In this document: positions 58,781 to 59,807 of the stretch, piece after piece
Numbering within the stretch: the stretch's first letter is position 1
Layout of the letters: the number at the start of each line of letters is the position of its first letter
Assembly: GCA_029561305.1 (NCBI GenBank)
Contig: JAKQJG010000140.1
Coordinates: 27,421-91,420 of the forward strand
Direction of reading: 5' to 3'
Source: Bacteroidota bacterium
Lineage (GTDB): Bacteria; Bacteroidota; Bacteroidia; Chitinophagales; Chitinophagaceae
Length of the DNA stretch: 64,000 nucleotides
Program-made: the position numbers and the translations under genes
Notes under the pieces: generated by a model
Told to the model about the DNA's origin: nothing
The model's input: only the letters and a program-made list of their open reading frames with translations
Database searches by the model: none

Positions 58781-58878
58781 TATTATCTCCAAACAAAGAA
58801 AACTATTGCCGGATTTTTTGTTACAAGTTATGCTTGTGAACGAAAAATCGTCCTGTGAGTGGCAGGAATGTAATTAGA

Positions 58879-59340
58879 TCAATCATACCATTCGAAAAGA
58901 TATTTATCATCATATTCTATTTCAAATTTTTTCATGAACTCAAGATATTCCTCTTTGAATGTTTTTTTAGCATGATGTTTCTCCTGGTTTAAAATATAAT
59001 CATATACGTTGCTGATGTGTGAATGAGAATAAGAAAAGGCCCCATAGCCTTCCTGCCATTCAAATTTTCCTTTTACAAATTTGCTTTTGTTTATAAAGTT
59101 GGTGGAATTATTTTTTACATCCCTTATCAAATCAGCAATCGACATTGCAGGACGCAAACCAACAAAAGCATGAATGTGATCAGGCATACCATTTACAATA
59201 ATGGGTTTCTGATTCTTACCCTTAATAATGCCTGAGATATACTTGTGCAGTTCTGTACCCCACTTACGGTTAATCAAATTTTCTCTTCCCCTTACAGCAA
59301 ATACCATTTGGATATAAACCTGTGAAAATGTACCCGGCAT
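58879..59340 (-). mobile_element. IS200/IS605-type Y1 (HUH) transposase, RAYT-like
   Basis: MPGTFSQVYIQMVFAVRGRENLI; HUH motif NGMPDHIHAFVGL; catalytic-Tyr region NVYDYILNQEKHHAKKTFKEEYLEFMKKFEIEYDDKYLFEW; no tnpB. Confidence 0.93.
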
Positions 59341-59397
59341 AAATGAGCATTAAAATTATCAAACTGATATGAAACATAAATACAATGCATTATGGTA

Positions 59398-59595
59398 AAA
59401 TCCCGAAGGGATGCCATTATTATAGTGTCAACAAATTCTACCGTTCGATAGAAAACCCCGTAGGAGTGGCATTGGAAAATGTAGACACAAAACAGACTAA
59501 CAAGCGCTTGTTTACCCAATATGCCAACCCTTCGGGGTTAAATCTCGTTGCCATTTCGACTTTTGCTATAATCATTACAGCCCTTCGGGCTTAGC
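59398..59595. repeat. Cluster of four related palindromic REP-like elements, two per orientation
   Basis: +: AATCCCGAAGGGATGCCATTATTATAG (59399) and AACCCCGTAGGAGTGGCATT (59454-59473). -: TAACCCCGAAGGGTTGGCAT (59521-59540) and AAGCCCGAAGGGCTGTAATGATTATAG (about 59568-59593). Confidence 0.8.
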
Positions 59596-59807
59596 AAAAA
59601 AATCCCTTTGCCATTCCCAACCTTAGTCCTAACTTTATACTACCAGACTGGATAATAACGACCACGGCTTTCTCCTGTCAACACGAAATACTGCACGCTG
59701 CTCCGCCGACCCGCTACTTTTTGAAAATGAAATAAAGCTGTATCCTGTAAGCTTTCATCAACCATTGATAACATGCATGCATTACTCACCACTAAATATA
59801 ATCAGCT

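Follow-up and report, generated by a model that had tools for sequence, protein, structure and literature searches.

REP-like hairpin units accompany an IS200-class (subclass 1.2) Y1 transposase in Bacteroidota

The window, a stretch of 64,000 nucleotides from a Bacteroidota genome, carries the intact open reading frame of a Y1/HUH transposase, tnpA, and 5' of it a cluster of four related hairpin repeats within positions 59398-59593, identified by sequence inspection and lying two on the plus and two on the minus strand (Table 1). Four such elements, two per strand, had been described 5' of a Y1 transposase in the first-pass annotation, and this is confirmed, as is the ATTATAG shared by REP 1 and REP 4. 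A mini-hairpin had been assigned to each copy; three of the four repeats have perfect stems, and REP 2 is imperfect and folds only weakly when taken alone. We also confirm that all intact hairpins are located on the 5' side of the gene; two decayed copies and one possible, uncertain copy on the 3' side had not been listed, and no perfect hairpin was found in the latter region (58843-58878). When up to three mismatches are allowed, the repeat motif is expected 11.2 times per 64 kb of shuffled sequence, equivalent to about 0.03 per 195 bp, whereas four were observed. Folded as a single strand, the 209-nt cluster forms one long hairpin with a z-score of -4.36 against shuffled versions, and 0 of 200 shuffles folded as well.

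Table 1. Coordinates of the transposase gene and of the hairpin repeats in the window.
Feature	Position	Strand	Description
tnpA, Y1/HUH transposase, TnpA-Y1 subclass 1.2 (by motifs and profiles)	58879..59340	-	153 aa; D54-H-I-H57, W95-Q96, Y115-ILNQ-EK-HH
Outer-type REP 1	59398..59425	+	AA + ATCCC-gaa-GGGAT + GCCATTATTATAG; exact family-pattern match
REP 1 hairpin	59400-59412	+	ATCCC-gaa-GGGAT; tail GCCATTATTATAG ending at 59425
Inner REP 2	59453..59484	+	AACCCC-gta-GGAGT + GGCATTGG...GTAG; one stem mismatch
REP 2 hairpin	59455-59467	+	ACCCC-gta-GGAGT; single C.A mismatch; GTAG at 59481-59484
Inner REP 3	59514..59541	-	AACCC-cgaa-GGGTT + GGCATATTGGG
REP 3 hairpin	59539-59526	-	AACCC-cgaa-GGGTT
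Outer-type REP 4	59566..59593	-	AAGCCC-gaa-GGGCT + GTAATGATTATAG; exact family-pattern match
REP 4 hairpin	59591-59579	-	AGCCC-gaa-GGGCT; tail GTAATGATTATAG ending at 59566
Four-hairpin REPIN-like unit, gene-less	59398..59593	.	Order outer, inner / inner', outer'; long imperfect hairpin
Decayed REP	59540..59558	+	AAATCTCGTTGCCATTTCG; by sequence inspection
Decayed REP	59600..59618	+	AAATCCCTTTGCCATTCCC; by sequence inspection
Possible decayed REP 3' of tnpA, uncertain	58843..58878	+	AAATCGTCCTGTGAGTGGCAGGAATGTAATTAGA; by sequence inspection

The transposase matches the Pfam family Y1_Tnp (PF01797, E 1.1e-22) and scores 58.1 bits with the NCBI IS200 model NF033573, above its cut-off of 55, whereas it reaches only 23.2 bits with the REP-associated (RAYT) model NF047646, for which the cut-off is 80. 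Subclass 1.2 of the TnpA-Y1 proteins has been defined by the motifs DH[IV]H, WQ and Y---Q--HH and a length of about 148 aa (Quentin et al. 2018, PMC6006769). Judged by its motifs, which start at residues 54, 95 and 115 (Table 1), and by the profile scores, the window protein is assigned to this IS200-class subclass and is not a classical RAYT, where Y---NP replaces Y---Q--HH. The latter motif is present in 101 of 103 homologues. One homologue (L063) retains DHIH but has NIQHDKIKH in place of the catalytic Tyr/Gln motif. An AlphaFold2 model of the window protein had a mean pLDDT of 92.9, and a fold search with this model returned ISDra2/IS608 TnpA as best match (E ~1e-8 to 1e-6), with TnpA-REP (4er8) scoring more poorly (E 3e-5). 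A sequence search of the PDB gave no match.

Flanks within 400 bp of the gene were scored at 110 homologous loci. At least one oriented hairpin was present in 97 of the 110, while 13 had none by the same definition and several divergent paralogues were likewise without hairpins. A typical locus carries two hairpins 5' and two 3' of the gene, in opposing orientation and spaced by about 50 bp. Hairpins followed by G..A numbered 258 on the 5' side and 225 on the 3' side, compared with 0.8 and 0.9 in shuffled sequence. All 5-bp/3-nt hairpins together reached 7.0 per kb 5' and 6.5 per kb 3' within 400 bp, falling to 0.46 per kb beyond 1 kb, with about 0.2 per kb in shuffles. The forward type dominates 5' of the gene (194 of 258) with position peaks near -80 and -30, and the reverse type dominates 3' (173 of 225) with peaks near +10 and +60. 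The hairpins thus accompany the subclass 1.2 transposase family. The one-sided arrangement in the window, which had been taken as a departure from IS200, turns out to be a local peculiarity, as most relatives have hairpins on both sides.

The stems of the repeats covary strongly. Repeats selected by the conserved 13-nt tail alone had a perfect stem in 83 of 101 cases. Across the aligned stems, 90.4% of cells were paired compared with 72.9% after shuffling and at most 48% in slid versions, and 42 double changes were counted against 9.6 in shuffles; as the rows are related sequences, this shuffle comparison should not be read as a probability. In 174 of 380 REPs, an [AG]TAG tag follows on the 3' side of the outer stem at a distance of exactly 9 nt. 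Since the gap from this tag to the following hairpin is variable (15-43 nt, mostly 23-27), the tag goes with the preceding hairpin.

Within the window's own genome, the expectation that the consensus would be repeated was borne out only for related repeats. The window's repeat type gave 44 matches compared with 42 in the control, and just two exact family-pattern matches, both inside the cluster; this hairpin subtype is confined to its own locus and has not spread in its genome. GTAG-tagged relatives, in contrast, are scattered through the same genome (33 matches against 1 in the control; 35 against 4 in another search), partly in arrays on contigs C55 and C245. Two further subclass 1.2 genes are encoded there (contigs C421 and C347), each with its own hairpin array. 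The array on C55 (8212-8883, L149) consists of alternating GTAG- and ATAG-tagged hairpins about 50 bp apart, and a transposase search of this contig gave no match. Contig C245 ends inside its array (L148), whose 48-bp tandem repeats have almost the same sequence as those next to the C421 transposase. On two other contigs (C123, L151; C318, L150), a GTAG-tagged hairpin is followed by more small hairpins and a common GTACAAGTGAGTGACACAAC, possibly as a composite repeat.

Several other genomes contain dispersed ATAG-type copies. Using a strict pattern with 0 control matches, these were found 32 times in Dyadobacter, 47 times in Ca. Brocadia sapporoensis, 27 times in G078, a further Bacteroidetes genome, and 10 times in Flavobacterium; another pattern gave 30 matches against 1 in the control. 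These copies are two-hairpin units or inverted four-hairpin units, and the four-hairpin layout of the window cluster recurs at scattered sites in G060 (Flavobacterium) and G068 (Brocadia). Outward-facing inverted outer pairs less than 250 bp apart, counted in these two genomes, numbered twelve and eight, respectively. The proposal that copies are intergenic holds in the other genomes examined, where only 1 of 117 dispersed copies lies inside an ORF of at least 150 aa compared with an ORF coverage of about 56%. In the four repeat-rich genomes (G060, G066, G068 and G078) the gene itself is low in copy number and diverged, with 2-7 matches, versus 10-47 gene-less units. Many of the Ca. Brocadia copies have longer flanks in common, and part of their number may be due to a larger carrier repeat. 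Several of these units (L219, L223, L224, L234) lie within a longer repeat whose ends are TAACTATTCAGCG-like and the inverse thereof. In G078, two-hairpin units (L238, L241, L242, L244) are placed between an inverted pair resembling GTCATTAACTTAAG / TTAAGTTAATGAC.

It had further been suggested that genomes without the transposase would lack the repeats. This is supported for close homologues (at least 60% identical), with repeats in 7 of the 11 genomes that have one and in 7 of the 49 that do not (p 0.002), a comparison of related genomes in which phylogeny is ignored. It is not upheld for homologues in general: presence of any homologue among the 60 relatives predicts repeats weakly (p 0.06, again ignoring phylogeny), and G012, a member of the window's genus, contains dispersed CCAACGGGGTGGTATGATTATAG-like ATAG repeats despite no subclass 1.2 gene being detected there.

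Evidence for mobility was obtained for both gene-less and gene-containing units. A 218-bp four-hairpin unit in G060 (L262, 939-1156) recurs more than ten times elsewhere in that genome, with very similar ends. At its site, the one site tested, four relatives are collinear in both flanks and the unit is absent; a search of these relatives for a subclass 1.2 gene found none. Insertion in Flavobacterium is a simpler account of this polymorphism than loss in four lineages. In case of the gene unit, the alignments of L103 with L111 and L119 (~94% identical) extend from 95 and 88 nt 5' to 76 nt 3' of the gene and break off at the outer hairpins; in other pairs the 3' limit lies close to the same position. 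These boundaries indicate that the gene with four hairpins also moves as a unit of ~620 bp, in different contexts. The first-pass annotation had conceded that the palindromes might prove to be the ends of one insertion sequence moving intact, and this is partly the case, as gene and four hairpins form one unit in relatives. Some near-identical pairs (L092, L107) come from different phyla by label, the sources being metagenome bins that are possibly misassigned. A search of a plasmid collection for homologues gave two matches and no cyanobacterial member.

At the window's locus, eight relatives of the same genus keep the downstream orf118-EF-G pair without tnpA and without repeats, so that gene and cluster are particular to the window's lineage at this position; further upstream the sequence of these relatives differs from the window and no precise empty site is available. 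The arrangement is best explained by tnpA adjoining a single gene-less four-hairpin unit, its own 3' hairpins having been lost or never present.

We conclude that an IS200-class (subclass 1.2) single-strand transposase is probably the basis of a small REP-like system at this locus, with TnpA acting on the hairpins. Because of the biochemistry of IS200/IS605 and TnpA-REP proteins, recognition, cleavage and rejoining of single-stranded hairpins is the most likely mode of action. TnpA would bind the 5-bp/3-nt hairpins in single-stranded DNA, such as the lagging-strand template, with the conserved tail and its terminal [AG]TAG as a putative recognition or cleavage tag, and would cut and rejoin the DNA via Tyr115. 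Two kinds of product would be generated: an autonomous unit in the order outer-inner-tnpA-inner'-outer' (~620 bp), and gene-less two- or four-hairpin, REPIN-like units that may be moved in trans into intergenic DNA.

An ordinary IS200-like insertion sequence, with the hairpins as subterminal ends and the gene-less units as internally deleted MITEs devoid of a REP-like life, would explain the IS200-class protein and the retention of the gene with two hairpins per side as a bounded ~620-bp unit across contexts. The Y1/HUH fold, the Y---Q motif and a hairpin-bounded element are likewise shared with IS608 and ISDra2. However, in IS200/IS605 elements the left and right ends differ and each carries a single subterminal hairpin, whereas here both ends have two hairpins and one end is an inverted copy of the other. 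Gene copies are few and diverged instead of forming multi-copy, near-identical elements, small gene-less units are abundant, and hairpins are also seen in arrays and in two-hairpin units that are dispersed. We therefore consider an ordinary insertion sequence unlikely. That the hairpins are terminators or RNA structures of neighbouring genes, unconnected to the transposase, is very improbable: they are indeed short, GC-rich and located in intergenic DNA, but an Rfam search gave no match, the 13-nt tail is conserved, the same hairpins are found at homologues in unrelated gene contexts while being rare 1 kb away, and they are missing beside orf118-EF-G in the eight relatives without transposase.

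Transfer of a classical class 2 RAYT/REPIN system (TnpA-REP) to Bacteroidota can hardly be credited either. Inverted REP pairs, intergenic dispersal and a low-copy gene would all fit, but the protein has Y---Q--HH rather than Y---NP and falls far below the NF047646 cut-off, and GT[AG]G stands at the 5' foot in only 1 of 380 REPs. The REP-like system favored here resembles the RAYTs and REPINs of E. coli, Pseudomonas and Stenotrophomonas (PMC3116915, PMC8266576) in that the gene lies between inverted hairpin repeats, gene-less inverted units are dispersed in intergenic DNA and each gene has its own repeat type. It differs in its class 1 protein, its 5-bp stems with 3-nt loops and four-hairpin units, its [AG]TAG tag 3' of the stem rather than GT[AG]G at the 5' foot, and its mobile gene unit, RAYT genes being defined by not transposing as a unit. 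Dispersed intergenic REPs with inverted doublets are found in all four repeat-rich genomes (doublets being counted in G060 and G068), and not for the window's repeat type in its own genome. The REPIN/RAYT-like reading of the first-pass annotation holds at the level of the family, with its inverted, dispersed, intergenic and gene-less units, and fails for the protein and for this repeat type in the window's own genome.

Subclass 1.2 has been reported as low in copy number, occurring mainly in Bacteroidetes and Cyanobacteria, with IS200 terminal structures generally absent and REPs tabulated as none (PMC6006769). Our proteins agree with that description in motifs, length (~150 aa), copy number and occurrence in Bacteroidetes; unlike it, most homologues here have hairpins. 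The absence of REPs and terminal hairpins is a negative finding of that study rather than a diagnostic trait, and is contradicted at 97 of 110 loci. TnpA-Y1 subclass 2.6 (Bertels group 5; PMC6006769) is also mostly found in Bacteroidetes and has atypical flanking structures recurring elsewhere in the genome, but its proteins carry Y---NP and insertions and form a separate subclass. Our literature survey, which covered few subscription papers or preprints, found no description of REPs for subclass 1.2 or of these repeat sequences.

In Bacteroidota and, by contig label, also in Ignavibacteria and Planctomycetes, an IS200-class transposase reported as REP-less thus has a gene unit that is mobile as well as hairpin units that are gene-less and dispersed, which corrects the published negative for subclass 1.2 and explains a hairpin-repeat family in these genomes. 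The class 2 transposases of REPIN/RAYT systems, with their dispersed hairpins, are described as domesticated and non-mobile. Because the gene together with its hairpins is itself mobile as a unit of ~620 bp, the present system stands between IS200 and REPIN/RAYT. More tentatively, and with prospects somewhat short of even, subclass 1.2 could be a living intermediate between IS200 and REPIN/RAYT, mobilizing its own four-hairpin unit while also spreading gene-less REPINs. If so, REPINs originated on more than one occasion, or else predate the split of insertion sequences and RAYTs. The transition from insertion sequence to REPIN becomes directly testable within one subclass.

A separate observation concerns the neighborhood of the transposase unit, which often adjoins type I restriction-modification genes (17 of 80 loci, including L092, L104, L107, L109, L084 and L093-L096). 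Several of these loci belong to one clade, so that co-transfer is possible. In L092, L104 and L109 the hsdS ORF, and in L095 the hsdM ORF, runs into the flanking hairpins and ends there.
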